A stretch of 64,000 bases of DNA from Polytrichum commune (lineage: Eukaryota > Streptophyta > Polytrichopsida > Polytrichales > Polytrichaceae), in NCBI GenBank assembly GCA_950295325.1, contig OX485803.1:70633554-70697553 (forward strand), read 5' to 3'. Made by a program: the position numbers and the translations under genes. Positions 208 through 63,583 of the stretch are shown here, piece after piece. Every line of letters begins with the position of its first letter. Within the stretch, counting starts at the first letter, position 1. The notes under the pieces are model-generated. The model was not told where the DNA came from, searched no databases, and was given only the letters and a program-made list of their open reading frames with translations.

Positions 208-3200
208 GCACCAAATAGAATTTACCTAGTGTTGGAGTACTGTGCGGGTGGGGATTTGTTCTCCTACATTCAGCGGTATGGCAAGGTGTCGGAAGTAGTT
301 GCGCGTCACTTTATGCGGCAGCTAGGTTTGTGTTCTTGCCAATTTATTCCATCTATTGCACATGGAAATCTTGATTTGTGAAGGTATTTTTTGTTTTTTG
401 TTTTTTGTTTTTCAATTGTGTGTGTGATAGTGAGAGGTCCTCCTACCATTCAAAGTTTGAAAAGGGGTATACTGTCAGTTTGTGGTTGATTTTGTTCAAA
501 TTTTGTTGGTTGGGTAGGCGCATGTAACCTCAATTAAATCGGAGGTGGGGTGGATAATGGGAACAGGAGCCGGACTTCAGGTGCTACGCCAAAATCATTT
601 GATTCATCGTGACCTCAAGCCTCAGGTCAGCTCCACTTGTATGATACCATGTTCCATCTAGGTCGCTTGAAGGAGATTCTGCATCTGCCTTGTAGGGAAG
701 AGTACTAATTGAGGCTCTGACTGGGGTTGTAATTTATTTCTTTTGGATATTTGAGACAGCTTTATGTTCCTCCTTCTCTCAGTAAGGTACTGCATTTGTG
801 TCATCATTCTTGTTTGATGCAAATTTATCACAAGAACATCACACTCCAGACGGTGGTTGTGATGTTCATCCAATTTTCAAATGTGGTTCTCTTCCCTGTC
901 TAACCACCTTCACTTTCTTTCTGCTGCAGAATTTGCTGCTGTCTACAAATGACAGTCACGCAGTGCTGAAGATTGCTGACTTTGGGTTTGCAAGGTCGCT
1001 GCAGCCCCAGGGCATGGCGGAGACTTTATGTGGCTCGCCCTTATACATGGCACCTGAGATTCTTCAGCAAAAAAGATACGATGCAAAGGTGAGCACACTT
1101 TCTGACTCTGTTTGTGAAGCACTTGTTCATACCTCTTTTAGGTTGTCCTCCCAGTGAGATGCTTCCTGAAGTCGAGCAAGACCAACTGTGCAAGTTTATA
1201 CTTCTTGTATGTGTGTTACATTTGACAAATCTGGAAATTTCAAATAGCCCTAGCTCTTGCATAATTTCTTTAGGCCCAATTAATGCAGAAGGACCAACGT
1301 TTCCATGAATATAGGTAGGAGATTTTCCATTGAGCTTCTCGTTGAGTATGTAGTAGGATCTGTTTATATAGTGAAAAACACGTGCTGACATGATATATTC
1401 AACGCAACCTGAGTTTAATCTGGTTGTCTTCATGTAGGTTTTATTGTCCTAACTTGTACCTGGTGGGATGTGGTTTTGTTGTCCTGCAGGCTGATCTATG
1501 GAGTGTGGGTGCTATCCTTTTTCAGTTGGTGACAGGCCGACCTCCTTTCAGTGGCAACAATCACGTCCAGGTATTACACTCATCAAACCATCTCCAATAA
1601 TCCATACTCAAGACCAGTGGTTGAGAGTCTACTCAATATGCATGTTGTGATTTGTATTTTAGTTTATATATGTGACTGGTGTGATTTCCCACCCATAAAC
1701 ACATATTCACTTTGCTGTAAAGTTCCTTCTGTGGGGGTCAGTGTCTACATCTAGACCACTGTTGTTAATTGAGACTTAGATCTCCAAATGTGTCCAAGGG
1801 AGTCAAAGTGTGGATCTCAAAGAGGGTAAGGGGTTTGTTTTCTGTGTGATATTTGTGGCTTTTGAGTCTCTAAGCCTACACATGTTAAGTGTCTTGTTTT
1901 GTATTTTCCTTTCCTATCATCAATCATGTTAATGTTTGCTTGAATAAACATTCAGTCAATTATATTGTGTTCTCTTTGGATGTCAGCTCCTGCAAAATAT
2001 TATGAAGTCAAACGAGGTGCGATTTCCTGAAGATTTGATGGAACAGCTGCATCCTGACTGCATAGATATGTGTCGGAAATTGCTACGGAGAAATCCAGGT
2101 ACCATATTATATTTACTTTTGAGCATTTTTTTCATGTAGCTTGTCATTTGTTACAGGTAACTTCAGAGCAGCGCCCTCAAAGATTGTAAAGATTTAAGGT
2201 TTTCTGTTCCACGTTATGCCTACACTTTGTGGGTCATCTGGTTGTTTTAAAACTGTCAAGTATCTAGAAGGTTCTACATCCTATCTTTGACGTGTTGTCC
2301 CCGTCTAGGTCCCCTTTGATTTAGACCTCTCCATATTTTGTCATTTTCTCCAGAGGTTTTTCATTAATAACTTTATTGACAATTTTGGATCCTTGTTGAC
2401 AGTGGAGCGTCTGTCTTTTGATGAGTTCTTCAATCATCCCTTTATGGGAGCTATGAGGTATTCTCTAAATTCTCTTTATCCACTTTTCTGCTTTATCTTC
2501 CAGTGTGCATGTAGTGGTGGAGATTAATTTATCCAAATCTTGAAACACCATCCAACAATGTGCATTGATGTGCCTTGAATGCAGACCAAAGGCAGATGAT
2601 AATCAACCAGTGGGGAGCAATTCCGGAGGAACTGGTGAAACAAGTGAAACTTCTGACCAGGAATGTTTTCTTCTGGATGAACAACAAACAGATGGTACAA
2701 CAAGTAGATTGTCTACAAAGCCACCACCATTTTTGCCATCCAGCAGTCCATTACTTCCTCCCATTGGCAGAAAACAACCTTTGTCGGGTACCTCTCCTCC
2801 ACCTCGGTTGGGCTTTCCTTCACCAGATTTGATGGGAGACAGGACAAGAAACCGGGGGCAGGTTGGAGTTGAAGAAAGGCCAACATCTTTGGAAACAGAA
2901 TATAACTCTGCCCTTAATGTATCCTCCACTAAAGGTACACAAGTGGAACATTTATACTTCAATATCTCAACATCCTTCAATGGTTAATCGTTTTCCATAT
3001 TGGCCCTAGCTCTTCTTTCACGTTACATCATCAATGTATTTCTTTTTATGTTCTAAAGACTCTTCCCAAGTTGAAGGCTGTAAGGATGTAATGAGACCAT
3101 CTCTTAGGTTGTTCAAGGGTTTTTTGGAAAGTTTTTGTTTTCTCTTTCAAAAAAGAGGTTATATTTACTTGCAAAGAATGTTCTAGGATCTCCTAATAAT

Positions 3201-5847
3201 CTTACTCTAGATTTGTTCTACTTGTCATTACAAAGGTAATCTGCCAGCATACATGCACATCTCCTTTAGTGGTGTTTAGCATACTTCGGCAGTGGAATTT
3301 GTGTTTATGCACATTCTTTTTTAAACTATTTATTTTTATTGAGTTTAGGAGGCTATACTATTGCATCTCCTGTGACAGCTCGTGCTTATCAGAAGCTTTC
3401 AGATGCGAGGATGAAAGGTGTTTATTCCTTCCTTGCAAAAAGTAAAGGCTTGATGCAAATCACTGTTTAGTTCTGATGGAGGCACTTTGTCTTTTATTTA
3501 GTCCCTTAAAGCTCTTCGAGCTTCCAATATTTTTGTAGTTTATGCATAACTGTCCCCTTCCTCCCTCCTCATAAGTCCTATGCAAACCTTTAGAGGATAA
3601 TTTCTCTTACCTCTTTACATGTGTTTTATTTATTTACTGTGGCAGGTTTGACAGGTACTTTGGAGAATTCAATTGACACTATTGAGCGGGAGTATGTTCT
3701 AGTGGCGGTTCCACAGATATCAACAGAAAATCTTGCAATGTCATTCAGTGCGTCTGATGTTGGCGGCCAAAATAGGGGAAGCAGTGGATCCCCTCAAAAA
3801 ATACCAAGTAATTTGAATATTACTACAACAAACTCTGGAGGAGGGGTTGGTAGTGCAGGTAGTAATGCTTCTGTTCCTTCACACAGCTCACAAGAATCTG
3901 CAGATAAGTTTGAAGGTCCTTCACAACATCCTCCTACTCGACTTTCATCCTTGCAGAAATGTGCGCGACTTGTTACAGAGCTTGCTACTGGCAAGGTTGG
4001 TGGATTTGACCTTACCCTTACTGGATAACACAATTTTTCTGTTTTGTGTGTGTGTGTGTGTGTTTTATTTTATAATTTTATAATTTAAATATTTAAATAA
4101 GTTTTTCTTTTTCTTTTCCATTATTGGACGGTTTTGTGCAAGTCTTCTCTTGTCCTGTTTATGATGAAAAGGTTACTGGGGAGCATTTTTTTTGCCAGGC
4201 ATTTGGCATGGGTGAAATTGTTTAAGTGGCTTATTCTATCCTCTCCTAGAAGTTTGCGATTGTATTCTGCAATAAACATGGGTATCTTGCAAACTGGCAT
4301 CGTTGGTAGGAAACTTGTGTCAAGTTTCAAAGAATGATCATTTGTCCTCGTACATCAGGGGAGTGTGTATGCTGCTTAGAAAGTCCAGAGTCTTGTCTTC
4401 TGTCTGGGCAGACAGTTCTGTCTTTTTATCCACGTAACAATCTCTTGTAACAACCTCCCTTGTAATAGGTGGAAACTGAAATCAAGACAATGCATTTAGA
4501 GTTAGTATTTTGCAATAGCTGGACTATGATGGAAATTGTTGATAGCTGTCCTTAGCCATGGCCTTGTGAGTCATATTTCCCAAACACTATTTATATACTA
4601 TATTAAGTATAGAGGAAAATGTGTTACATGTGAATTATAGTTTTCTGAACCTGTACCTACAGATGGAATCAGGGCAAGTACTGGAGTCGTTCTCTATTCA
4701 GCTCGTATGCTTGGCCATTTGGAAGGAAGCACTTATTGTATGTAAAAGCTGGGCAGAAACTGTTGGTAGTTGTGAACACAGCAGCAGTAATGAGGGGAGG
4801 GGCATTAAAATGGAGGAGGGTGAAGGATTATCTGTCGTAAATACTTGCTCTTTGATGGAACGGGAGTTTGCGTTTGCTGTACAGAGAGCTGAAACTTTGT
4901 CATCGCATATCACTGTAGTTCATCGTAAGTGTACTTCACTCATCTCAGAGTTGGAATGATTTTGAGTCTTGTGGTAGTTTTCTGGCATGCCCAAAAGTTT
5001 CTATATATTCAAGAAATCTGATTAACAGTTTCTAATCCAAATACTTAAGCCTGTCTGGTTCTGGACAAATGGATTGCAGCAACGGCAGAGATGCCAGATG
5101 CCATGGAGCTCATCTTTCAAGCTGCGCTTGCCTTGGGCAGGGCTGGAGCGGTAAATCTAACCCACTCATTTACAACATTGATTCATACTCTTTGTGTGGA
5201 AATAGTACAAGTGCCTGTGATGATACATGTGTAGGTTCAAGTATAGTTCAAGGAATGTGAATTTGAAGCTAGAAGTTACAGGAACTTGAGAATTGAGGAG
5301 ACTTATTTGCCTGTCAGGGGTTCAAGTCACAAATGGTTATGTTATCTTCAAAAGATAATCTTGTTCATAGTCCGTACAAGGCATTGCATAGTTTCTATGT
5401 CAGTCATTAATTTTAAAGTATTAGTTGAAATTGTTTCAATACGTTGCACTTCATATTAACTATGTTATGTTGGTTCATGGAAACATCATTGGATTGGTCT
5501 CAATGGGTTGCTGTAAAAGAAGTATTTTCTTGGTATGCTATTTAGGTTGGCTTCCTTGACCTCGATTATAAGTTCTTGCCAGTGAAGATTTAGCTCATAA
5601 CTAAATGTGTTTATAGGTGGAGGAGCTTTATGGTAAGCTGACAAGTGCAGCCGAAGTCTATGCAAAAGCTGCTTCCCTTCTTTATTTTCTTGTGGTTGAG
5701 GCTGTGGCATTACCACTCCAGCCACCTCTACTCTTGTCTGATAATGATAGGCACCGGCTCCGAAAATATGCTGACCATGTGACCCTTCGCCAACATCAAT
5801 GCATTGTTAATGCTCAGGCTCGTCCAACACTTCTGACAGAGACATGA
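208..5847 (+). CDS. ATG1: Autophagy-related serine/threonine kinase ATG1 (5' end outside window)
   Basis: ATG1 is the kinase of the ATG1-ATG13 complex that starts autophagosome formation in the cytosol. Twelve exons join in frame: 208-325, 567-625, 930-1088, 1490-1570, 1987-2098, 2403-2457, 2585-2934, 3349-3417, 3646-3995, 4663-4924, 5080-5150, 5617-5847, giving 638 residues. The first visible exon opens at kinase subdomain V ([13 protein letters not shown]); then come IHRDLKPQN, the DFG loop ([11 protein letters not shown]), [12 protein letters not shown] and [13 protein letters not shown] Ser/Gly/Pro-rich linker follows, then a C-terminal region (about 3960-5847) resembling the MIT-type region of plant ATG1. 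The glycine loop and catalytic Lys lie upstream of base 1. The linker holds EREYVLV (3684-3704), a possible ATG8-interacting motif. Every exon boundary has AG/GT and phases agree, so the gene looks intact. It converges on the peptidase gene. Identity as ATG1 is close to certain; which ATG1 paralogue is not. Confidence 0.96.
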
Positions 5848-18546: not shown

Positions 18547-19643
18547 ATACACTTTAAGGCCCTCCATTTTAACTTCGCCATCTCTTCTTATTCATCTTTT
18601 TTGGATTCACCGACCCCAATAATTACATTCTTTATGCTTTTTTGTTTTCTTCGGTCATTATCTTGTTAATCGCCCTTTCTTTTTCTTAGAAACATATTTT
18701 GATGTTGATATTGGCATTGCTATTGTTATTGTTGTTGTTGTTGTTGTTATTCCTAATGCTTCAGGTTGTTCGTTCATTTGTCTACCTTCCAAAAAATTGA
18801 ACATTGGCGGATGTCGAAACATACTAGAAGGTGAGGGGAGAAGATTAGGAGCATGCGACATTTTGGAAATGGGCGATTTTTTATTCCTAACAAATGGAAT
18901 TGTCATGTCTTCTATCCGTTGTGAACTTTGTAACCATTCTCCTTGTGATTTTAACCGTGACTCTTCATCTACATTATATCCCTCCATTGTTGCCAACAAA
19001 AAAGTCAGGCTACTACAAAATATCACAACATGTTCTCAAAACAAATGAGAGTTTGCTGAATACAACAACCTAATATACAAATGTTAGTTCAGTTCACGTT
19101 TTGTTGTTTTATTTTACACTGTAATTTGTATTTTTATCTTTTTCATGTTATTTATTGTTATATTAATTTACTATTCTTTAACATTCTCCTCATTTAATTT
19201 AGTATAACTTTATAATGATTACTTTAATTTAACATTTTATTGTTTTACTCTCTGTTTTTTTACTGTTTTTTTTTTTAAAAACTTTTTGGGATTTAGACAT
19301 TATACTGTTTTCTTAGTTCCAACGTTTTTTCTGTAATGAAGGGAAGAGCAGTTGCCATAACACGCACAACCCTCGAAAAATTTTCTTTAAAATTTTATTA
19401 AAATAACTTTTCTCTGCCATGGGCGCGCGCCTTTTCTTACCAAACCACTTCTTTTGTCTCTCTCACCGCAAAACCTGTTGGGTCATGTCAGTGCATTTAT
19501 TACACCTTGAAATTATATTTTGGGGACCTCGACCTTCATTGTTCCTCTACCATTTTTTCCCTAGTGTAAACCGAAGTGGTCCCGGGACGAGTTCAGCAAC
19601 CAATCAACACTCTTACATCGCCTTGGGACAACTTTGTGGTCCA
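18547..19643. other. Noncoding AT-rich stretch
   Basis: It contains a (TTG)n microsatellite near 18720-18746 and poly-T runs around 19250-19280. A 122-codon open frame on the - strand (18658-19026) is partly a translation of the microsatellite and matches nothing I recognise. Confidence 0.3.
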
Positions 19644-21673: not shown

Positions 21674-22182
21674 GTGTAAACCGCCCCTGTGTCAGGGTTT
21701 GGACATGATGGCACAATATATAGTGGGAGAAATGGATGAATGAGAATGAGCAAGGATGAAGGAAGGACTCGGAACCTAAAACCCTAAACCCAAGTTCTTC
21801 AATGGTCTTCTCGATGCCACAGGCCTGGAATTCCTGAATTTTGTAAAGACCCCTGCATCACCGTATTTCCAGTGGCGGTCACATTTTTGAGCGATCAGTG
21901 CACTGCCGATGCACATTTCGAGTGCCGAAGTGCACTGGTCAATGTGCCGAAGATGAATGCCCAGTCTAATTTTTCTCCAACTGGATTTGTGAGACCACTG
22001 AAGAAGCTGGGGTTGTTTTGATTTCAAGCATTCCAGGATTAGAGAGAGGCCCAACGACGCTGGTAAAGAAGGACCTGGAAGCTTTTACGTTCCTTATTGT
22101 TACTACATTCACACAGGGAGCAGCATTTGGATCCTGGTGTGAAGTGGGGAGATAGGGTCCAGGGTTTGTGGCGACTTCAGCT
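21674..22182 (+). other. Upstream region of the bL35m gene
   Basis: This probably holds the promoter and 5' UTR of the ribosomal protein gene. No TATA box is obvious and no protein of its own is encoded. Confidence 0.35.
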
Positions 22183-25623: not shown

Positions 25624-26571
25624 GTGTCTGAAAAGTTTAATGGTGATTGTGCCAAATTTATCGATTTTATATGTTGTGTTAAGTTGTTCATATGTATGCA
25701 ACCTTTGCGATATCCAAATGCAACCTCAAAAGTTGAGCTAGTGAGTACGCTACTTATTAGTATAGCTTCAAATTGGGATTTATCACTTGTGAAAGATAAA
25801 TTGCCATTATTAAACGATTTTGAGGAATTCGTAACAAATCTTTTCATTGCATTTGGAGAGCCCGATAGAAACATGACTGCAAACTCTAAGAATACAAGTC
25901 TATGTCAAGGACCAAGATCCACTGTTGACTATGCTTTTGAATTTAAAAAATCATTACATACCGATAACTTTTTGATGGAGATGGCATTGATAAGACAATT
26001 TCAATGGGGACTACGAGATGAAATCGAGTATTTGCTACTAACTATGCCTGAACCTAGTAGTTTGGCAGATGCCATGAACCAAGCTATGAAGTGTGAAAAC
26101 AAACTACGCACACAAAAACAAGACATTTATAGTAACAAACTAATTCTAACATTGGCTTTCATATCATCTTTTATTCTACCTATCAAGATATGTGGGACAA
26201 AGAGTATTGAAGGGGTTGCACTTTTGGATTCGGGTGCAAATACTTGTTTTATGGATCCAAGTTTTGTGCAACAACACAATATAGCATTGAAGCCAAGGAT
26301 ACATACCATGCGTGTCACTGTTGGAGGCAGTCGTGCAACTATCTTAGAGACCCATGAAACAAAGCCTTTAGAGCTTAACATTGAGGATTGTTCTTGGAAG
26401 GTGGTTTTTAATGTCAGGCATAATCCCAAGTATCCTATAATCCTTGGTCAAAATTGGCTAGAATTTAGCGATCCGTATATAGATTGGCGGAATAGAAAGT
26501 TGAAATTCCCAAAATTTCCCAACAACAAGGCATTTGATGATGGCCATATTGTGGACACATCTACTTCATAG
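25624..26571 (+). CDS. Retrotransposon-derived gag-aspartic protease ORF without zinc knuckle or polymerase
   Basis: An uninterrupted frame of 316 codons runs to the stop at 26571. The frame opens at a GTG; the first ATG is at 25696, giving about 292 residues. The N-terminal two thirds resemble the Retrotrans_gag domain of Ty3/gypsy-type elements (SNWDLSLV, LNDFEEFVTNLFIAFGE, then QFQWGLRDEIEYLLLTMPEP). The C-terminal third is a retropepsin-like protease with the active site LLDSGANTCFMD (Asp at 26227-26229) and a PIILGQNWL motif. The usual CCHC knuckle between the two is absent, and no reverse transcriptase, RNase H or integrase follows. No flanking LTRs were seen. It is either a truncated element or a gag-protease copy that has kept its frame. 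Confidence 0.7.
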   Translation: MSEKFNGDCAKFIDFICCVKLFICMQPLRYPNATSKVELVSTLLISIASNWDLSLVKDKLPLLNDFEEFVTNLFIAFGEPDRNMTANSKNTSLCQGPRSTVDYAFEFKKSLHTDNFLMEMALIRQFQWGLRDEIEYLLLTMPEPSSLADAMNQAMKCENKLRTQKQDIYSNKLILTLAFISSFILPIKICGTKSIEGVALLDSGANTCFMDPSFVQQHNIALKPRIHTMRVTVGGSRATILETHETKPLELNIEDCSWKVVFNVRHNPKYPIILGQNWLEFSDPYIDWRNRKLKFPKFPNNKAFDDGHIVDTSTS

Positions 26572-27195: not shown

Positions 27196-27576
27196 TAAGA
27201 TATGTGGGTGTTATGCTATTCCTTCTCTTAATCAGACACCCAAATTTTGATTGGTGTGTGATTTGGTGAGGATTAAAAGTACAAATATCATAAAGACACG
27301 TGTTTACAAGAGATTGAACTACGTCTTCATATTTTACTGACTATTCCACATTCAATAGTGAACACGATTGGGAGGATCTATGCATTCGGTTAAGGTATTG
27401 ACAAATATACACTTTCAATAATCATAATTAAATCAAGGGAGGTCCGATTTTCAATCCGATTTTTGATAATGCTTCATCATTGTTTTGCTCATGCAACACA
27501 AGTTTTCATTGTGTAAATGTGATCGGTAGAAGTCGAAGAACACGAAAAACGAATTGAGTAACACCCACATACCTTA
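27196..27576. mobile_element. MITE, family with TATGTGGGTGTTA ends, copy 1
   Basis: The left end TAAGATATGTGGGTGTTA and the right end, reverse-complemented TAAGGTATGTGGGTGTTA, form TIRs of about 18 bp. The interior matches the reverse complement of 28817-29165 in ordered blocks (GTGTGTGATTTGGTGAGGAT, ACACGTGTTTAC, GGAGGTCCGATTTTCAAT). There is no ORF. Confidence 0.75.
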
Positions 27577-28000
27577 GTACTAGTGAACCTTCATAGCATT
27601 GTTCAGCTGTTATCAGTCGTTCCTTTCCAACAACATCAATACACGTCTTCACCTGACTATTATCAGGTGGAATATCCAAGCCAATGCTTTGCTGAGAGAA
27701 TAAACATACCATAATTCTGAATAGAATCTGCCTCATTCCCGAACCCACCTAGCATACAAACTCAGTTGGATAATGTTACGTTGTTGATGTGATTAACAAT
27801 TATTATTAATCACAACACACAAGTCCTACTTAGTGGAGGGATGCCCCAGGATAAAGTCTGGTGTGACAAAAAATTTGCATTATAAAGTGCGGTTCATCTC
27901 CATCTTCACATGACTCATTGGTGTCGTTAATGGTTTATTCCTCTAAAGTCCACTCACCTGACGTTCAATAATCACCACCTTCTCTCACTTTTAGAGTCTA

Positions 28001-28520
28001 AGGGCCTGTTTAGACTTGGGGCCAAGGCCATTGGGAACGAAGGCCAATATGTCCCATGTGGCATGCAAATGGGCCCCCAAGGCCATTAATACGAAAGTAA
28101 CCTAACTCCATTCATTGCTTTCATGTGTAAACCTATTTAGGTGGGGTTGGGGCCATTTGGAGGCTGCAATTATGAGAGGGCTCCAACGTACTCATGAACT
28201 ATTCTATGGATAATAATTAAAGTATAATAAATTTAGAATTTCTCCCCTCCTATTCAATCCTCAAAGAATAAACTACTACAAGCAAATAAAAGCTCTGACA
28301 ATGGCCTCAACTAGAGGGAAAGAGTCCACAAGGTTGGGAGCTCTCTTTTCCAAGGCTTGAGGCCATTGTCATGATGAATAAAATAATTTATTTGTTAATT
28401 GGCCCCAACTCATGGTGTAAACTTAAAGAGGCGAGTCCCAACATCTCTACCAATGAGAGGAGTGGATTTCTTGCACCCCAGCCCATTTTTGAGCCCTGAC
28501 TCCAAGTCTAAACCCACCCT
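28001..28520. mobile_element. hAT-like MITE with AGGG termini
   Basis: The left end AGGGCCTGTTTAGACTTGG and the right end, reverse-complemented AGGGTGGGTTTAGACTTGG, form 19-bp TIRs with three mismatches. The element is about 520 bp without an ORF. No 8-bp duplication is readable, so the superfamily is a guess from the termini. Confidence 0.55.
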
Positions 28521-28816
28521 AATTCAGGCCAGTGCTCTAAAAATTCCAGGTTCACAGGCTTTGCAATACCCACAATTTTGCAGCTAATGCAATCTCCCAA
28601 GTGCTGAATGAATCTCGTTCACATTGCCTTGAATTCCACTGGACCTGCAAGTGCCACACATAACATGCATGAGTCTATCCTGACCCAATGTTGGATCTCT
28701 TAGATGACTATTTATCAGCTCAACCTCCAACCTTGCCAAATTTTTAGTGTTGAAGCAAAAAAAAAAAAAAAAAGTATGATATTTGTCAACTCCTTGAACC
28801 TAATCATGTGTACTGA

Positions 28817-29165
28817 TTAGGTATGTGGGTGTTATTATGTTTGATTTTCATGTTCTCGAATCTCCAACTTCTACCAATTATATTTACACGACGAAGCTTA
28901 TATTGTATTAGCGAATCTCCGATGAAGTTTTAGCAAAAATTGATTGAAAATCGGACCTCCCCTGATATAGTTATGGTCATCCGAAAACGTGTTGACTATC
29001 AAGTGTGGAGTAGTTAACAAGTAAATTTGAAGCCTTAGTCCAATCTTTGGTAAACACGTGTCATTATGATTTTTGGTCTTTGATCCTCACCAAATCACAC
29101 ACCAAGTTCATATAAGGAAGGGTCTGTTTAGGAAAAAGTAACGGAATAACATCTGCGTACCTTAA
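28817..29165. mobile_element. MITE, family with TATGTGGGTGTTA ends, copy 2 (inverted)
   Basis: This inverted partner of 27196-27576 has ends TTAGGTATGTGGGTGTTA and, reverse-complemented, TTAAGGTACGCAGATGTTA. The right TIR is more diverged. Together the pair forms a large inverted repeat around a third MITE. Confidence 0.7.
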
Positions 29166-42409: not shown

Positions 42410-43231
42410 AGGGGCACTTCACACTATGGCAGAAGGTCGATTTCCACCAATCACATTGTAAGAAACCAAGAGTTCGGCCTCTTGATTCTTCACACTAAGG
42501 CCAAAGGCCAAAGGTTGTTGCAAATTAAAATGATTACTTTTTGAAGAAGGCGACGGACTCTCAAAGGAAGTTTGAGTCAAACAGGAATGGAAACCCAAAC
42601 TACGGTCAAGAGGACGTCGGTTTTTTTTCATTAAAAACTCAGTCATTGACAAGATCTTGGTTGTTGGATTGGAGGGGTTGGTTTGGGCAAGGAATGAAGT
42701 GGGATGCTCCTTTGGGTTTGGACTTTGGGCTTGGCCTTTGGAGACTTAGGGCCGCTTCACACTATGGCCGTCGAAGTCGAGAGGGCGTGGGATTGAGTGG
42801 CCAAACTTTGTTGAGAGTCCAAAGAAACGGGCTGAAAATAATAGCCAGTAAAATATAGTAAATGGAGCCCTCGGTTGGGCATAGTGTGAAGCCTCCAAAG
42901 GCCAAGTGCAGAGTCCAGATCCAAAGGAGCATCCCACTTTATTCCTTGCCCAAAACAATTCCTTCAATCTAACAGCCAAGATCTTGTCAATGATTGATTA
43001 ATTTATGGGAAAAAAACCAACGGTCTCTCGACCATAGTTTGGGTTTCCATTCCCATCTGACCCAAACTTCCTTCGAGAGTCTGTCACCTTCATCAAAAAG
43101 TAATCATTTTTAATTGCGACGGCCTTTGGCCTTAGTGTGAAGGGTGGAAAGGCCGAACTCTTGGTTTCTTGCAATATGATTGGTGGAAATCAACGGCCTC
43201 TCAACCTACAACCATAGTATGAAGTGGCCCT
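42410..43231. mobile_element. Foldback element: roughly 820-bp palindrome of MITE sequence
   Basis: The left end AGGGGCACTTCACACTATGG and the right end, reverse-complemented AGGGCCACTTCATACTATGG, begin arms of about 320-340 bases that stay complementary throughout. Shared blocks include CCAAGAGTTCGGCCT, AATGATTACTTTTTGA, AATGGAAACCCAAACTA, ATTGACAAGATCTTGG and GTGGGATGCTCCTTTGG. The loop (about 42748-42900) holds another copy of the same terminal sequence (AGGGCCGCTTCACACTATGG). There is no ORF. Termini look hAT-like. Confidence 0.8.
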
Positions 43232-43486
43232 TAACACTATGGCCGTCCAAGTTGAGAAGCCATGGGAGTTCATGGCCAAAGGTTTGGACTTTGGGCTTGG
43301 CCTTTGAAGGCTTCACAGTACTATGCCCGACTGAAGGCTCCAATTACTATATTTTATTGGCTATTGATTTTCAGCCCATTTGTTTGGACTCTCAACAAAG
43401 TTTGGCCACTCAATCCCACGGCCTCTTGACTTCGACGGCCATAGTGTGAAGCGGCCCTAAGTCTCCAAAGGCCAAGCCCAAAGTCC
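43232..43486. mobile_element. Adjacent inverted copy of the same MITE family
   Basis: The right end, reverse-complemented TTAGGGCCGCTTCACACTAT, continues with GGCCGTCGAAGTC; the left end lacks the first bases (AACACTATGGCCGTCC). The right part (43300-43486) is a near-identical inverted copy of 42719-42925, extending beyond the element into GGACTTTGGGCTTGGCCTTT. This shows an inverted duplication of a MITE plus its flank. Confidence 0.75.
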
Positions 43487-45993
43487 AACATAATATAGCA
43501 CCACGAGCAACACTCACAAGTTACTCCACTAGCAAAGTAACCCTAAACTACAGCCACTAAGTACTTTGCCTCCGGCTGTCAGCCTGGGAAGTTTTTTTGG
43601 GGGCATAGTTGGTCAAGATCCTAGTGATTCTAAATCCAACCAGTTACATTTTGATATAATAGTCCGGTTTTGTTTCATTCATTTGAGGTATATTCTTCTA
43701 TAGATTCCTCTACCTAAAACGATCGGTCATTCTCCTGAAGTCTCCAACTTCAACCGGTTATTCCGTCAAACTCATGCCCCGATCCACCTAACGCACGTTC
43801 TCTCTAATTCTAGTCGTGAAATTGTTGGGGATTGTGCTGAGAAACATATAGATGTTGGCCCACCACTTTGCACACTATTACAGTCGGAGATGCTGAAGGA
43901 TGGTGCTAGAAGTGGCCGGTGTGATCAACCCCTAAACCGGTTCATGTGTAACTAACCGTTGGTTCTTCCCGAGCAATGCTAACCAAGGCCCATGATAGCG
44001 CTTTGCAATGCCGCCTTCAACTACAAAACTTAGCTAGGCTAGCCAATTGTAGTAGACATGCTAGCTGTAGAGGCTTCTTCACCACATCACAATTCGCCCA
44101 TGGCTTGTAGTTGTAACCCAAGCACAAAATGGGCCATAACCCCCCCCCCCCCCCAACGGCCAATGGCCTCATCCGTTTACCACTAAATGACATGGTGGCA
44201 TTTTCGGCTAATCAATATGGCAACACACTACTTATGGAGTAGAAAACTAGCATGGCTCGTCATCCACTTACTCGAGTTGGTTATTAGCCATAAGCAATCA
44301 ATTCATGGAGATCATTCAGAGATTATGAATGATATTCATGGATGGAACTTTATGACAAGTTTTGAAATTTATGTTGTTCTTGAATAAGTGGTTGGTTATG
44401 AAAGATGGAATTATTGCAAGATGAATAACAAATCTAAGTCATGAATATAGTCATTTTTGTCATATTTTTCAAAGCTCATGTGTATATCTTATTTATTTTG
44501 AAAATGGTTGTAGTGAATTAGAATGGTTGTCAACAAATTTCAAGCACATAGTCCAATCCTTTTAAGACACATGTCTTTTTTGGTGTATGTTCTTTAATCC
44601 ACATCTAATTACATATCACTCAAAATGTAAGTGTCCATTTAAGATGGGTAACCAAATTAGTCCCACTTACCTTAAGGTATATGGATCTTGTGTGGTCATT
44701 CTTACTTAGGGCACGTGATCCTAGAATTGGCACTTTGAGTGTTGAATGTATCTATATTATTAGATTGTTAAAGGTCTAAATATTTATTGTCATGAATTGA
44801 GACGGGATTCCAACACACCAAAAAATGGATTTTGTATGCAAAAGTTTTTAAGGTTCAAAAATTTATTGGTAGATGAAAAAAATTAGAATGTGAGCTTGAT
44901 CTCAAGAGGGCATAATTTCTCAAATCAATGTGTACTTATAATGCAATATATTTTAGCGTTGGTTTTGGGTCGTGTGCTAGTTTTAGCACACTACTCTCTA
45001 CCTCGTATTGGAGTAGTATGACTTGACTGAACATTAATATCAAATTACCTACATGACTAGTATGAGAATTGGCAAGCCTTGTAGTTAAGAACGGACGTGA
45101 AAAGACAATGTTGCTCAAACTACATCAATCATTCTAAGTTCAAGTAATTCACATAATTGAAGAGTTCTATGTGATTGTTTGAAGAGAAAGAGAATTTTCT
45201 TTTTGATCTCTTATGAATTTTGTACTTTGATTTTGATTTCAAAACTTGGAATGATAAACTTTGTGAGTTGCACTTGCTAATCAAAGGAGAAAATTTCCAG
45301 TATGATCCAACCACCAAGATTGTGTGTGAAGTTGGAAGTGGCCACCTACCTAAACTCATGATCGTCTGTGAGTTTCACAAATGAATTTTAAAGAGATTAG
45401 TTTGACTTTGTAATAGGGATTTTACTACATCTGGCCTACCACTGCATCCTTGGTGGGCCACCACTTTTACAATTATCCATTTTGGGTCCACACAAGAATC
45501 AATCTACTCCTAGTCTAGTGCACCAATAGTGGTCATCCACTATTTCTTAGGTTTTCTACCTTAAAATGTGGACGTCTACAACAATATTGCGAGAAAGGCA
45601 CACAAATATACAAGAAGGAACATTTATTCTTTCCACACCCACATAACATTATTAAGCAAAGTGCGTTCGTTCGTGTGGCCCCCAAGCATATAACTATGGA
45701 TACCACAACTAGTGCAAATTTAGTCTAAATGTGCATTATTTGCAGCATCCCATGGTTATATTCTTGGGGTCCACATGAGCTTAGAAATGTTATGCATAAG
45801 GCATAAATATATTCTAGTCAAATTACCACAAATGTAGAATCAAGTTCTAGAACATGCCAAAATAAGGTACCTAACCAGTTCAAATGTGAAGGCCCACACT
45901 TGGTCCAAGCTGACTTTTAGGTTGAAATAATAATTTTAAGGCATGAGAATATTCAATGAAGTTGGTTGCATCAGCCCAAAGCACGGGGAGATC
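43487..45993. other. Noncoding stretch with one decayed ORF copy
   Basis: Apart from the fragment at 44540-44690 and a run of 14 Cs near 44140-44154, nothing was recognised. Confidence 0.35.
44540..44690 (-). pseudogene. Decayed partial copy of the 156-codon ORF family
   Basis: The reverse complement reads KKDMCLKRIGLC, and further 5' GTNLV-like codons, corresponding to KDMYLKEIERHA and VPNLV of the 40077-40547 ORF. The part between them is deleted and stops are present. DNA blocks such as ACATGTCTTTTT and GGTAACCA[A/G]ATTAG are shared. Confidence 0.5.
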
Positions 45994-46911
45994 GGGAATT
46001 ATTGTATACAAGCGTACCTCTCATTCATCCATTCATCCAACATAAAAGCCCTGAAATAGTATGTATCCTAAAGGGTTTAAAAAAAAAATTGGTTTGACAT
46101 CGGAGTCAACTTTACAGGTCCTAAATTAATCTTCTCGAGATCATTTGAGATGAATCATCAACAAAGCTATAGGGAGCAAGGTCAAGGTTTTTATGTTGGA
46201 TAGATGAGAGGTATTGTTCTCCCTCTTTAGTATGACACGTTTGGGGAACACACAAAAAGTTGTATTATCGAGGTGTCGTCTTCTTCTCTTTAATATGACA
46301 AATGGTGTAAAGTTGTCGTATTATTGAGGGAATACGAAAACATAAGTACTATGAGGTTAAAACTATGTATATAGCGAGTTTAAGCAATATAGATGGTATG
46401 AAATAATAACTTATAACTCCAAACAAATACAAATATTCTCAAGAACTCTTGAAACAAGAGTCCAAAGATCTTTGGTGTTGACTACCCAAGTTAGCAACCG
46501 TCATCTAATCTAAATTCCCTACTAACTTTTGAGAACTAATTGATTTCATTCACACCAATATATAAAAAGTTCTATGATAAGAAACTAGACCATGTCCATT
46601 CTACACTCAGAACCCTAATTCTTATTAAGTTCCCAATGATGAGTGAAGTTCCCAAGTAGTTTCCAAGTGAAAATGGATGTATTTTAGATGTACATAACAT
46701 AGATGAAAGGAATTTTAGCATTAACTACTGCTTTAATATGACAATATGGAGATTCTAAATTTCGCATTATCAAGTGTGGTAGTCGTATAAAAGAGGGAGT
46801 TTTGAACTAAAAAGTTTGGTCTCGCAAAAATGTGTCATAATATCAAGGGTTTTGTACAAACAAGTGTCGTATTAACGCCGGTAGACTATACGCTCGTATG
46901 CTATAATTCCC
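45994..46911. mobile_element. Short MITE (GGGAATTAT ends), copy 1, interrupted
   Basis: The left end GGGAATTATTGTATACAAGC and the right end, reverse-complemented GGGAATTATAGCATACGAGC, both continue into GTACCTCTCAT and a CATCCAACAT-type block. Without the 675-bp insert the element would be about 240 bp, similar to copy 2 at 59201-59381. The insert sits between two TAs where copy 2 reads GAGAGGTACACTC. Confidence 0.75.
46214..46888. mobile_element. pogo-like MITE, copy 1, nested at a TA
   Basis: About 675 bp without an ORF. One end reads TTGTTCTCCCTCTTTAGTAT and the other, reverse-complemented, TAGTCTACCGGCGTTAATAC; both continue into GACAC. TA flanks both sides (46212-46213, 46889-46890). 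An inverted copy lies at 60746-61421 with long shared blocks, for example CCAAAGATCTTTGG and AGAACTTTTTATATATTGGT. Confidence 0.8.
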
Positions 46912-47935: not shown

Positions 47936-49015
47936 TTGTATCCCTAGTACTAAGAATTTTGCAAGCATGATTCTCCATTTATGTTGGGGCACCCTTGCAA
48001 AATAAATAGTGTTGGTCTTCATCATTGTTCACTTTGCAAGGGTGGACATACATGTGGGTTGTTGATCATTTGATTCATCAAAATTAACATCCAACTTAGT
48101 ATTTTAGAAGTCAGCTAGCCAACTTGGTGGCTAGGATTGCCGCACTACGAACAAGGTTCACTAACCAGATAATATAACAAGAGCAATTTGTGGCGAGGTA
48201 TTAGGGCTCCCTTGAGGGAAGCTAAGACATGAGCATTGAGCAATGAGTAGTAACACAATAAGGAATACATCATATTATGTGAGCGTTGAACTCAAATATA
48301 ATAAGGTTCACATGGCTATAGGGTTTTACTCTACATTTTACATTAAGTTAACAAAACTTATTCATGTGTATATACTTGTAGACATGAAAATCATTAATCA
48401 AGGGGACCTATTACACTCTAAACTCTGTAGTATCACACCTGTGGCAACCAAAGTTCACGTGATATTACGGAGTTTTGTAGTGTTAACACGGATGTGTGAT
48501 ACTATAGAATTAGTGTAGCATGTGATATTATGGAATAACACAAAGGGATGTGAGGACAATTTGGATTTGTTCTCCCGTCACCTACGCTTGTGTGGTCCAC
48601 TCCACTCTTGGCCTTCCCGGGCAATGTGGCGGACGCATGCACCAACATTCAACAAGTGGCATAAGAAGAACAAGAACAAGAAGAATAAGAATATAAGGTG
48701 ACACTCCACATGTTGACACATGGCACAATGCGAGGGTATGGGTTGACTTCTTTGGTGGTTTGCGTTAATGACAAATTTCATGATATAAGGGAGAGAAATG
48801 TGACAATAAGGAGTGATATTTGAACTACAAACATCCGTTCCTAGGGTTTCAGGATATTAGAGAGTGTGACATTATGGAGTTTGATTGTTGGAGAACACTA
48901 AGTCGTTTGCCAATTTTTAATATGATAATCCAAAACATTATGGTATCCTAGGGAGTGCATTGTTCAAGTACTGTAAATATACACATGCGTGCACAAAAGG
49001 GGTATTATTTAGAAC
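47936..49015. other. Noncoding stretch
   Basis: No gene or element with readable ends was recognised. Confidence 0.3.
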
Positions 49016-49018
49016 AAG

Positions 49019-49351
49019 CACTAGTAGAAAACATGGTAAAAAAGAACCGTAGTCGTTTTCCCATTGCGGTTCTTTTGACCACCCTGATCTGTAGTCACTA
49101 AACGACTGCAGATTTGTTTTTTTGATTTAACAACTGAAATTTTAAGAATTTGGGGGCTTTTAATATACCGCTGGAAAGGTCTTCAAAATACCTTTCCAAC
49201 GGTGTATTATATGCCCCCAGAATTTCAAAGTTTCAGTCGTAAAACCAAAAAAACAATTCTGCAGTCATTTAGTGACTGCAGATCAGGGTGGTCAAAAGAA
49301 CCGCAATGGAAAATCGACTACGGTTCTTTTTTACCATGTTTTCTACTAGTG
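49019..49351. mobile_element. CACTA-type MITE with perfect AAG duplication
   Basis: The element starts CACTAGTAGAAAACATGGTA and its right end is the exact reverse complement of those bases. The 333-bp body folds into two arms of about 150 bases with few mismatches (shared blocks AGAACCG, GACTGCAGAT, GACCACCCTGATC, AAAGGT). AAG lies at both 49016-49018 and 49352-49354. CACTA ends with a 3-bp duplication define the CACTA/En-Spm superfamily. There is no ORF, so it is non-autonomous. Confidence 0.92.
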
Positions 49352-49354
49352 AAG

Positions 49355-52300
49355 CATGTACAAAATGTATGTACAAGAGACATATTGCTATTAAGAAAGA
49401 AGTAGATATACATGAGGCTGGAGATAAGGCTATAGAAAAATATATGTAAAGTACAAGTTTATGCGTTTACGCGTTCAAGTCAGACCTGGACCAAGAATCA
49501 TGCGTATTTTCATCCACTAAGTAACGACCTTATTTGGAGTTATGATCTCACAGATCATATTATGCTAGAATTAAATACGGTTATTGCTTTGGCCAATTTG
49601 ACGTATGATGCTGAAACAGACACGTACGAACTTCATCCAAGTGATGAAAAAGTCTTTAACGACTTTATAACTAAAAATCCATGATTTGATATTATACATA
49701 TAATAGGGCCATATTTTTGCATTTCCAAACATTTGTACAAATGTTATATACAATTTCTGTATTTGTTTTTGGACCCTTGTGTACGTATGGAAATGTGTTT
49801 TGAAGCAATGAGATTTGTAAGTATATTGCTTGATTTTAGCAAAAATAAAATGTATACAGGGGTGTTTTAATAAGGGGCATGTACGCACGTGATTCTTGGT
49901 TTTAATGAATAGTGCACTCCCTGAGTATGGTATGCAACAATTAAACCACTTGATCGGAACTCCATTCTCATCATCATCAGTTGGTAGAAGGGTTCACTAA
50001 TCTCAACTTCTATAAATTCATAAACAATACTATAGTCTTTGTCTTAACTATTATCACAAACCTAATAACATGATCCTTCATGCTCTTCACCTTTCACATG
50101 CTTCAACAATAGTCAAGTGGCCTCTCTCTTAGACTAACCCTTGACATTCTCTCTTCCTAAGGCTTCAAATGCCTTTCACAAGGCTTAGGTTTTTCTCAAG
50201 TGGCTCCTCTCTTAGGTAACCCTCAGCACCTCTTCATTTCTATCACATGGTAACTCCCTATCCGTCTCTTTTTACAACGGTCTTTGATTTTTGCATCAAT
50301 TGAACTAACTCTCCGCACACTCTTTGTCCTAGTCACTCAAACCTCTATGTCTATGAGCACTAGCAGGCTATAGTTCGACACACATTGTGTAATATCACCT
50401 TCCTCAGCCAATAGTTTAATGAAAGCTCTTAAGCTCAAAAGTGCATTCAGCACCTACTAATAGTTTTATTTACTCTCAATTCGATTCAATTTCAATACCT
50501 TCTTTCTCAAACACAATGGGCATCATTCATTCTTGCTCTCCATGCAGATTTTTCCTCACATTACTTTGTGTCAATTTCAATTTGCTCTTACTCATCTCAG
50601 ACAAGTATTTTCACAATCTTACATTGTTATGACTTCAATCGACCTTTGTTAATCAACTTAGTCCAAGTCTATCAATTCCAACTATTTCACAATTTTCACT
50701 ACTAAATTTGGTCATAGTTTCAACTTAATCAATTGTTTCTATACTTTCAAACTCACTCCAATGTTATAGCAACAAAAGGACAATAGTTCTTAGCTTCACA
50801 TAACTCAATTCATTTCCTATTAATTCCATACCTCTCATACTCATATCAAACTTGTTCACACTTCCTATTCACGTGAAGACATCTCAATTAGAACTTTGGA
50901 CACTATGAATTGCATTCAGCACAAAAGACAATTGTTTACGATCTCACATATATGAAAATAGTTTAGACAGTTGTTGGCACTAATGTGTAACTCATATTCA
51001 AAATAACAATAAACTTAACCTCAAAGTTGCAATCCCGCAATTATTATGGTAATTGCTAATTTTGTTTACAAAAAATAATTGAATTATTGACCTTGCACAA
51101 TCCATGTGTTGAGGGAGACAAGACTATGAGTTTAACAATGCGGGCAAAAAGTTCAAAGAAATTTCTCCCCTTCATGTCCCTCCTCATGGCCAAGGGGGAT
51201 GATGATAGTTCCAACCAACTGGGCGCTCCTAACCCCATTATTATAGTTCTATCTGCCTAACTATGTTCATAGTTCACTACTTTCATCCATTGAAGTACAA
51301 TTTCCATCTAAATTTCACTAAAATTTCTATAGTGAAACTATTAGCCTAGTATTTTGGCTCAAATATACAGTTGTTTTTCTTTATAATTGTTCCATATATA
51401 GGGTGTTTATTTCATAGTCACCCACACACATCATTTAGGTTTCCAATGAAGAGTCCACCCCCTGGGAGGATACTACAGTGTGTGTTTCCACATGGTTATA
51501 CTCCATTACCACTCATAAGTTACCACTCACCACTCATATGATAGCATTCCCGGGGCTCCCCTTATAGAAAAAGGGAACATCTCAAGTAGTTTGTGGAACG
51601 TTAGGATGTATCACAACACTTTGATTTAGTGTTGCACACACCCTGGAAGGGCACCTCTATAGAAAATTGGCATACACATGTGAGAACCAAGTATTTTTTT
51701 TAGGGGCTATTTATCTTAGTATTTGAATTTTTTTGGACCCTATATTATCAAAACTCCTACTTATCATCATTTTCCTCCACCCCTGATGTAATTATGAATT
51801 CCACAATCATGCAATAAATTGCACCTTATTTTATTTATAAGAAGTAGGAATCCAAAATTTCCTCATGGTATTGGTGTGGAGTTCCTTCTTTGTTGATGTT
51901 TGTCACATAAGGAAACATAGCAAAATTACAAAACATGTGAACGATATGAATATGGTGCAATTATGCAGTTGAGGGAGTTGTGCAAAATGATAATGGAAAG
52001 AGAAAACTAGCTCAACGTGCTTCTAACTATATAATAACATTTTAATCCCTTTTTCAACTTTCATCCACAATGAGCCAAAGTTCATCCACATTGGACCAAA
52101 GGCCATCCATAGTGAACCAAATCTCATCCACATTCGTTTAGATTTCATTCATGTTTCCGACCAGCCCCTGCTATTTTTTTAGCATCACTTAACATACCCT
52201 CCAAATGTACTCATCCTCACAAAAATGTATCATTCTAATTTTTGTCAGAATATTTTACAGAAAATAAAATTAAACTAGCACATTTTATAGTATCGTATGT

Positions 52301-60745: not shown

Positions 60746-61421
60746 CAATCTAACCTCGTTAATATGACACTCATTTATACGACACCCTCGATGTCACGAC
60801 ACATTTTTGCGAGACCAAACTTTTTAGTTCAAAACTCCCTCTTTTATATGACTACGGCACTTGATAATGCGACATTTAGAATCTCCCTTTTGTCATGTTA
60901 AAGAGGTAGTTAATGCTAAAATTCCTTTCATCTATGTTATGTACATGTAAAATACATCCATTTTCACTTGGGAACTACTTGGGAACTTCACTTATCATTG
61001 GAAAGTTAATGAGAATTAGGGTTACTGATGTAGAATGGACATGGTCTAGTTTCTTATCATAGAACTTTTTATATATTGGTGTTAATGAAATTAATTAGTT
61101 CTCAAAAGTTAGTAGGGAATTTAGATAAGATGACGGTTACTAACTTGGGTAGGCAACACCAAAGATCTTTGGACTCCTGTTTCAAGAGTTCTTGAGAATA
61201 TTTGTATTTGTTTGGAGTTATAAGTTATTATTTCATACCATCTATATTGCTTAAACTCGTTTTATAAAATTTTAAGATCATATTTATTACTTATGTTTTC
61301 GTATTCCCTCGATAGTACAACAACTTTACGCCATTTGTCATATTAATGAGAAGACGACACCTCGATAAATACGACTATTTTGTGTGTTTCCCAACCATGT
61401 CATACTAAAGAGGGAGAACAA
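60746..61421. mobile_element. pogo-like MITE, copy 2 (inverted relative to copy 1)
   Basis: It begins CAATCTAACCTCGTTAATAT after TA (60744-60745) and ends, reverse-complemented, TTGTTCTCCCTCTTTAGTAT before TA (61422-61423). About 676 bp align to the reverse complement of 46214-46888. There is no ORF. Confidence 0.8.
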
Positions 61422-61423
61422 TA

Positions 61424-61881: not shown

Positions 61882-61889
61882 TGGATAGT

Positions 61890-63360
61890 CACGGGGAGGT
61901 CACTCAGTAGGATTTTTGTGTATCACATGCGGCGGAGGGGTATTTGTTTAAGGGCTATTTACCTCCAAGGCACGAATTAAAAGCTCCCTATAATTACATA
62001 ATATTCTAAAATGGCCTATTTTTTTGTACCCTACCATTACTTATAATGCCCATGTCATTGAAATTTTTTGTAGTCTATATTCCTTTTAATTAAAAAAATT
62101 GAATTTAAGAATGTATGCAATGCAAAAGTGATGGAAAAAGCAATGCAACAAAAAAATATAAAAATTACGTACCATTGCAAAAACCAAGTACAAAAACTTA
62201 AAGTGAAAATATAAAAAGAAGACTTAGGATGGAACACAACAAGATTGTGTGTGTGTTCACAAACACAACACCCGCTCCATAAAAATCTTTTATTCAAAAT
62301 CACTTTACATGCTAGTGAAGACCAAAACCATATAGTGTGAAACACTTTAAGCTTGGTCATGAATCTTATATAGTTCGTTCTGTCACAAACTTGGACAGTT
62401 GCTCTGAATCATTCCTATCAAGAGTGTACACCTCATTTGTAGAATTGTAGCTCATGGTTACCGTAGATATAATGCAATCTACATCAATCCATTTGCTATC
62501 CGTGTGATCATACTTAAATTTGTTACGGCCTGGATATTTTCTATAATATTGCAACATTACTTCGATGTGGGGATTATTAGGATTTCTCCTCCCTGATTCC
62601 TCCGTTCGAGCAAGGAGGTCAACCGCTTGCCTAAGTACTCCAAATTGTTTCCCATTGTGCCGCCGCATAGCCTGCACCCTACCCACCCACCATGAACTGG
62701 AATCTACTCCGTTCAATATGTTAGTAGCATTTCCAGCTTTAACATCAGTCATTGAACGTCCCCTTTTTCGTTTGGCACCGGATTTTACAGTTGACAATAG
62801 CATTGTTATGCTCCGTTGGACAAAATGCACCCCACAATCAGATCCTGTAGATAACAAACTTGATCCACATAAAGATCTTGCTTGGAGACAATTATCATGG
62901 TTGTTCAAATGAATACTATGTTTAATTCTTGCTAATCTATCTTTGGATAGAAAAACATTACCATTGAGTTGCGAGACAAACGTTGACTTGTAAATGGAAT
63001 GCCCATCAACTTCTACGGTTGGCAAAAAATTTCCGGTTCTCTGTACCGAGGCTTCCAATTTCATTCATTTTTGGGTGAATGATGAGTAATTTTTCATCCA
63101 TCCCTCGTGAGGCATGCGTACGAAATTGATTCTACTAAACATACATCCTAAGATCCTTATTTTCAGCCCCTATATTACTTTTACTAAAAGGGAATGGCCC
63201 ATATTTTATACCTATCTATTTTACTTGTAATGGGCTTATGTACTTTTAATGGACCCTTCATTATTTGGAATTCTTTTATAATTTTTATGTCAAATGATTT
63301 TAATCCTCCCTATATTATGCCGCACGTCGTTTTTAAAATGCACTAAGTGACCTCCCCGTG
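61890..63360 (-). mobile_element. DNA transposon with CACGGGGAGGTCACT ends and intact 8-bp duplication
   Basis: The left end begins CACGGGGAGGTCACTCAGT and the right end, reverse-complemented, CACGGGGAGGTCACTTAGT. The octamer TGGATAGT lies directly outside both ends (61882-61889 and 63361-63368). The 1471-bp body carries one uninterrupted 232-codon ORF on the - strand. An 8-bp duplication is typical of hAT (also P) elements, but the termini are not the usual CAGGG and no transposase was recognised. It is probably non-autonomous. Confidence 0.88.
62366..63064 (-). CDS. Unidentified intact 232-residue ORF carried by the 8-bp-duplication element
   Basis: The ORF starts at ATG 63064 and ends at 62366 without introns. 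The N-terminal half includes FLSKDRLARIKHSIHLNNHD; a basic nuclear-signal-like KSGAKRKRGR follows. The C-terminal half has WWVGRVQAMRRHNGKQFGVL, YYRKYPGRNKFKYDHTDSKW and IDVDCIISTVTMSYN. The WWVGRVQ...KFKY...W(I/V)D.D pattern suggests a small beta-rich domain, possibly related to BAH/Tudor-type chromatin modules, but this is only an impression. Intact coding sequence between fresh TIRs suggests recent activity or selection. It is not a known transposase fold as far as I can see. Confidence 0.55.
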   Translation of the reverse strand: MKLEASVQRTGNFLPTVEVDGHSIYKSTFVSQLNGNVFLSKDRLARIKHSIHLNNHDNCLQARSLCGSSLLSTGSDCGVHFVQRSITMLLSTVKSGAKRKRGRSMTDVKAGNATNILNGVDSSSWWVGRVQAMRRHNGKQFGVLRQAVDLLARTEESGRRNPNNPHIEVMLQYYRKYPGRNKFKYDHTDSKWIDVDCIISTVTMSYNSTNEVYTLDRNDSEQLSKFVTERTI

Positions 63361-63583
63361 TGGATAGTATGATAATAACAAAGAAATTCACATATGTAAT
63401 GCTTTAATTATAACATTTTTGTGCTTGACTATGAACTTATTATAAAGTGTCAAAGCCTTGTATTGATGATGATCCTTACTTACTATACATGCGCCCCATG
63501 ACAATGGACAACATGTTGATGGTGAGGCCATTGCCCCACTGTTCCCCACTGTATAATGAACCGGGATGGTGTAAGTCAAACTA

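Follow-up and report, generated by a model that had tools for sequence, protein, structure and literature searches.

A terminal inverted repeat element of Polytrichum commune with a 232-codon open reading frame, and a second element that appears to share its end signals

Among the Mutator-like elements (MULEs) with extra open reading frames (ORFs), PMC6446971 lists those carrying mudrB, vanB and vanC. The element described here (element 1) comes from a 64,000-nucleotide stretch of Polytrichum commune contig OX485803.1, hereafter the window. It is like maize MuDR with its mudrB, and Arabidopsis Hiun (VANDAL21) with its vanB and vanC, as these are presented in PMC6446971 and PMC5735166, in that a non-transposase protein is found within a plant DNA transposon. 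It is unlike the MULEs with accessory ORFs in having terminal inverted repeats (TIRs) of only about 19 bp and no transposase in this copy, and whereas VANC is recorded with DUF1985 and DUF287 (PMC5735166), the 232-residue ORF product is without any Pfam match.

A short TIR, an 8-bp target site duplication (TSD), a length of about 1-1.5 kb and the lack of a transposase are features shared with the Ds-like elements of Ac/Ds and with Pack-hAT elements, to judge from the accounts in PMC3260210 and PMC8903248. However, the end bases of element 1 differ from the C/TAGGGATGAAA given for Ac/Ds in PMC3260210, the insert is no recognised host gene, and an apparent relative sits in an element of a second type.

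Element 1 is 1471 bp in length (61890-63360) and lies between perfect copies of TGGATAGT, located at 61882-61889 and 63361-63368 (both plus strand). Its ends, CACGGGGAGGTCACT, pair as inverted repeats at 15/15 positions and, across the longer arm (left TIR at 61890-61908, plus; right TIR at 63342-63360, minus), at 18/19, the first 15 bp being perfect. Further in, a subterminal motif is found at either end: ACATGCG on the left (61925-61931, plus), with its first base at position 36 from the end, and ACGTGCG on the right (63321-63327, minus), with its first base at position 34. On the plus strand of the window TGGATAGT is present only as the two flanking copies, while its reverse complement occurs three further times. 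The whole window was scanned for perfect 8-bp repeats, spaced 100-6000 bp apart, that enclose ends matching at 12 or more of 15 positions. Four matches were returned, of which element 1 alone reaches 15/15; the same scan of 100 order-2 Markov windows gave 19 matches in total, 16 of them at 12/15, three at 13/15 and none higher. The perfect 8-bp duplication reported in the preliminary description of this locus is therefore upheld. That description also called the element young, which we are unable to confirm because a perfect TSD dates nothing and the window holds no second copy of element 1 for comparison. No empty site was found in the window: the joined flanks of element 1 match three partial repeats, self aside, and none of these spans the junction. 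Literature searches with sequence strings and with descriptions, covering mostly papers outside subscription, gave no title on element 1 among the matches listed; the family may already be named in repeat libraries such as Repbase. To the left of the element, the window contains two copies of a repeat in inverted orientation (46212-46885 and 60749-61423; 91% identical over 681 columns), one of which ends approximately 0.47 kb from it.

The 232-codon ORF is located at 62366-63064 on the minus strand and specifies a basic protein (pI 9.7, 26 kDa) possessing a KRKRGR stretch. It contains both WWVGRVQ and KFKYDHTDSKW, as had been stated. ORFs of this length beginning with ATG were found in 0/2000 order-1 Markov elements (maximum 171 residues) and 0/2000 order-2 Markov elements (maximum 225), the observed length thus exceeding all 4000. 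An in-frame TGA (63065-63067, minus) directly precedes the ATG, and past it another 34 codons are free of stops, as far as 63169, with further in-frame ATGs. Because of this arrangement the earlier claim that the ORF is intact must be considered unproven, and the frame is perhaps already damaged at its start. Downstream of the ORF there is an AATAAA (62289-62294, minus), a possible polyadenylation signal, and TATA-like words are found at 63280 and 63210; all of these are consensus matches only.

A Pfam search with the whole ORF gave no match, and hence no transposase domain, which bears out its description as a non-transposase frame; when the halves were searched separately, the single listing was TdIF1_2nd, with an E value of 0.16, for the C-terminal half. 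NCBIfam gave no match, and the best match by sequence in the PDB, whether with a single sequence or with a two-row profile, had a nonsignificant E value of 0.071. No relatives of the ORF were found in viral contigs, plasmids, or bacterial and archaeal genome contigs, collections which by their description are non-plant, and the TIR pattern of element 1 is absent from the viral contigs. AlphaFold models of the whole ORF and of its C-terminal half, made without an alignment, had pLDDT values of 31 and 47, respectively, and neither is usable. Foldseek with the C-terminal-half model produced 286 matches up to an E value of 10, none at or below 0.001, and the best of these (E 0.1, rmsd 11.3) was discarded as meaningless. 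The chromatin-type domain that had been proposed for this protein is without support: no profile match to a BAH, Tudor or chromo domain was obtained, and the alignment-free structure models are too poor to judge by.

The window contains a second element. Element 2 (48947-49925, plus; 979 bp), with ends CCTAGGGAGTGCATT and CTCAGGGAGTGCACT, was recovered in the same scan between perfect 8-bp copies of TATGGTAT (48939-48946 and 49926-49933, plus). Its ends match at 12/15; a perfect 8-bp TSD around ends matching at least this well occurs by chance in approximately one Markov window in five. What all four ends of the two elements have in common is CNNNGGGAGNNCAYT together with ACRTGCG at base 34-37 (base 36, 34, 37 and 36, respectively). 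Across the four aligned ends C1, GGGAG at 5-9, CA at 12-13, T15 and ACRTGCG are invariant. A pattern consisting of the core and ACRTGCG, with one core substitution allowed, has four sites in the window, which are exactly these four ends. In 200 Markov windows it averaged 0.015 sites per window, a figure that is optimistic because the pattern was drawn after seeing those ends. Scored with a matrix built only from element 1, element 2 has its right end in first place after the self matches and its left end outside the nine best sites; a matrix built from element 2 puts both ends of element 1 in third and fourth place after self, with two unrelated sites ahead of them. When pairs of random 60-mers were compared, one of 20000 reached the observed score. 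Judged from these ends, the two elements, both flanked by an 8-bp TSD, appear to have TIR sequences that differ but follow one grammar.

Nested in element 2, at 49019-49351 (49016-49354 by its widest bounds), is a MITE of the CACTA type, which consists almost entirely of inverted repeat (165-bp arms, 89% complementary) and is flanked by AAG. Two other intervals with 8-bp repeats were rejected as candidates, since both are situated within larger inverted repeats and are without the end pattern. One of them (42651-42985) falls in a complex of overlapping inverted repeats at 42436-43488, the arms of which are up to 97% complementary. The other (27296-29061) lies in 27251-29105, an interval with inverted arms measuring 324 and 287 bp (67% identity) in which ACACGTGT occurs at 27296 and 29054; this may be an old element with long TIRs.

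Element 2 contains an open frame of 82 codons plus stop (49436-49684, plus), 47 residues of which align without gaps to the C-terminus of the 232-residue protein. Only 11/47 are identical, and the score of 70 compares with a mean of 28.2 (sd 4.8) and a maximum of 54 in 2000 shuffles of the frame. Among the 1232 six-frame peptides of at least 30 residues in the window it ranks first after the ORF itself, the next score being 56, and phmmer assigns it an E value of 0.0022 over 2195 peptides of at least 20 residues. At the DNA level the alignment of the two elements is not above that of shuffles. First, second and third codon positions agree at 22/47, 27/47 and 24/47, respectively. Together with the lack of a DNA alignment better than shuffles, these figures give no sign of purifying selection, the copy in element 2 being a remnant that is of little use on this point.

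Five other peptides of the window that score against the ORF were set aside: none has the end pattern around it, and they align with the ORF over short or gapped stretches. The closest candidate for a third relative is a frame at 21779-22084 (minus), which is weakly similar to ORF residues 41-76 (score 56, a value reached by 0/1000 shuffles). The remaining four are at 48505-48648 (score 45, 0/1000 shuffles), 4124-4354 (48, 3/1000), 43209-43343 (43, 1/1000) and 18661-19035 (42, 12/1000).

On balance, we are slightly inclined to regard element 1 as a non-autonomous TIR transposon of class II, the cut-and-paste kind, the ORF of which is of the accessory type and belongs to the transposon lineage. 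The preliminary description had left the choice between a new family and a captured host gene. The TIR/TSD element is real, and capture is disfavoured: the window contains another element, similar in its ends and flanked by a separate 8-bp TSD, in which there is a diverged remnant resembling this protein; for the same reason membership of the transposon lineage seems, from sequence comparison, the more likely origin of the ORF. Several observations argue in the opposite direction. Among them are the matrix rankings, the optimistic chance figure for the end pattern, the frequency by chance of a TSD and ends such as those of element 2, and the lack of a transposase match among the window frames of at least 100 residues. 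In addition, the protein identity is just 11/47, with no alignment at the DNA level and no sign of purifying selection; two elements that had acquired related host genes would look alike; and the frame at 21779-22084 lies outside any such element.

On this reading, a transposase supplied from another locus of the genome would bind the ends of element 1, recognizing CNNNGGGAGNNCAYT and the ACRTGCG about 20 bases further in. Acting in trans, this putative enzyme would excise the element and reinsert it through a cut staggered by 8 bp, in keeping with the TSD observed. The ORF would be, or derive from, an accessory gene that stands beside the transposase gene in a full-length relative, and would have been retained in the shortened copy, perhaps with a damaged start. 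Since the predicted product is small and basic, with its KRKRGR stretch, we surmise that its most probable role is that of a nuclear helper binding DNA or chromatin, which might serve in end binding, integration or anti-silencing, much as mudrB or vanB and vanC may do for MULEs. ACRTGCG is the sequence to which the putative product may bind.

No autonomous partner is evident in the window: 0/52 open frames of at least 100 residues, approximately eight of which were taken from the first start codon instead of as the full frame, have a Pfam match to a transposase, neither hAT nor MULE. Two other loci were recognized. Frames at 786-4956 show a protein kinase domain (E 8.1e-14) upstream of an ATG1 MIT domain (E 9.9e-22) and are likely an ATG1 gene, and 25624-26571 is a retrotransposon remnant with a Ty3-type gag (below the Pfam cut-off) and a retroviral aspartyl protease (above it). 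The MIT and kinase domains mark the host as a eukaryote, and a channel fragment and the CACTA-type MITE point to a plant.

The superfamily to which element 1 belongs may be considered separately. It could be a hAT element with unusual ends, that is, an internally deleted Ds-like derivative moved by a hAT transposase; this is compatible with the reading preferred above, and we hold it possible, if doubtful. The TIRs of hAT elements start with YARNG, usually CAGGG or TAGGG. A C at the third base breaks this start, and none of the four ends begins with CAGGG or TAGGG, both ends of element 1 starting with CACGG, as the earlier remark that they are unlike CAGGG implied, and those of element 2 with CCTAG and CTCAG. 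The TSD consensus of Ac is nTnnnnAn. That of Buster is nnnTAnnn (PMC3517528), and TGGATAGT and TATGGTAT match neither, although two TSDs constitute weak evidence. The ORF, having no Pfam match, also lacks a hAT transposase domain. In favour of hAT, the TSDs of elements 1 and 2 are both exactly 8 bp, and the TIR of element 1 (15-19 bp) and its length are within the ranges that PMC10741241 gives for this superfamily (8-bp TSD, TIR of 5-27 bp, length under 5 kb).

Equally tentative, and again compatible with an accessory ORF of the transposon lineage, is the view of element 1 as a short-TIR member of the Mutator-like elements, its ORF being a MULE accessory ORF. The 8-bp TSDs of both elements are contained in the ranges of 8-11 bp (PMC6446971) and 7-12 bp (PMC10741241) cited for MULEs, and extra ORFs are entered for several of them in PMC6446971. 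However, long TIRs are not seen here; about 19 bp is short beside the plant rows consulted in that compilation, which mostly have at least 30 bp, some having none (PMC6446971). Moreover, the TSDs of barley Hvu_Abermu, as given in PMC9168764, are 9 bp in 267/278 bounded copies and 8 bp in 10, and those of elements 1 and 2 are both 8 bp.

An explanation that we consider unlikely is that of a Pack-TYPE element, in which a transposon has taken up part of a host gene whose family has no Pfam model; the ORF would then play no part in transposition. Element 1 indeed has TIRs and a TSD and no transposase; the ORF has no domain match, is possibly damaged at its start and gives no sign of purifying selection, and Pack-TYPE elements are known, according to PMC8903248, in several plant TIR superfamilies including hAT. 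A one-off capture does not, however, predict that a diverged peptide resembling this protein should lie in a further element, distinct from element 1, whose ends are similar and which has an 8-bp TSD of its own.

We are still less inclined to see here a plant TIR lineage that is absent from the libraries searched and characterized by 8-bp TSDs, CNNNGGGAGNNCAYT ends, a fixed subterminal ACRTGCG, and an accessory protein of its own, of a new family, which would bind that motif and aid integration or block silencing. It is decidedly improbable that element 2 is unrelated and resembles element 1 in its ends and peptide by chance: the end pattern and the peptide were found by looking, and each single test is moderate, but TSD, inverted ends, position of the subterminal motif and peptide similarity coincide in one 979-bp interval. 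The CACTA superfamily, defined in PMC10741241 by CACTA/CACTG ends and a 3-bp TSD, was rejected for element 1, the ends of which likewise start with CAC but have no CACTA/CACTG terminus, and the TSD of which is 8 rather than 3 bp.

Helper proteins encoded by transposons are few, and some, mudrB and vanB for instance, are given as of unknown function in PMC6446971, while anti-silencing VANC offers a handle on the escape of transposons from silencing in plants (PMC5735166). What is new at this locus is element 2, which appears to share with element 1 its end signals and part of the ORF protein. Should the ORF be a captured gene, or element 1 a hAT derivative of the standard kind, the case would be ordinary; if the ORF does accompany matching end motifs in both of these diverged elements, protein and motif would form a pair open to testing.
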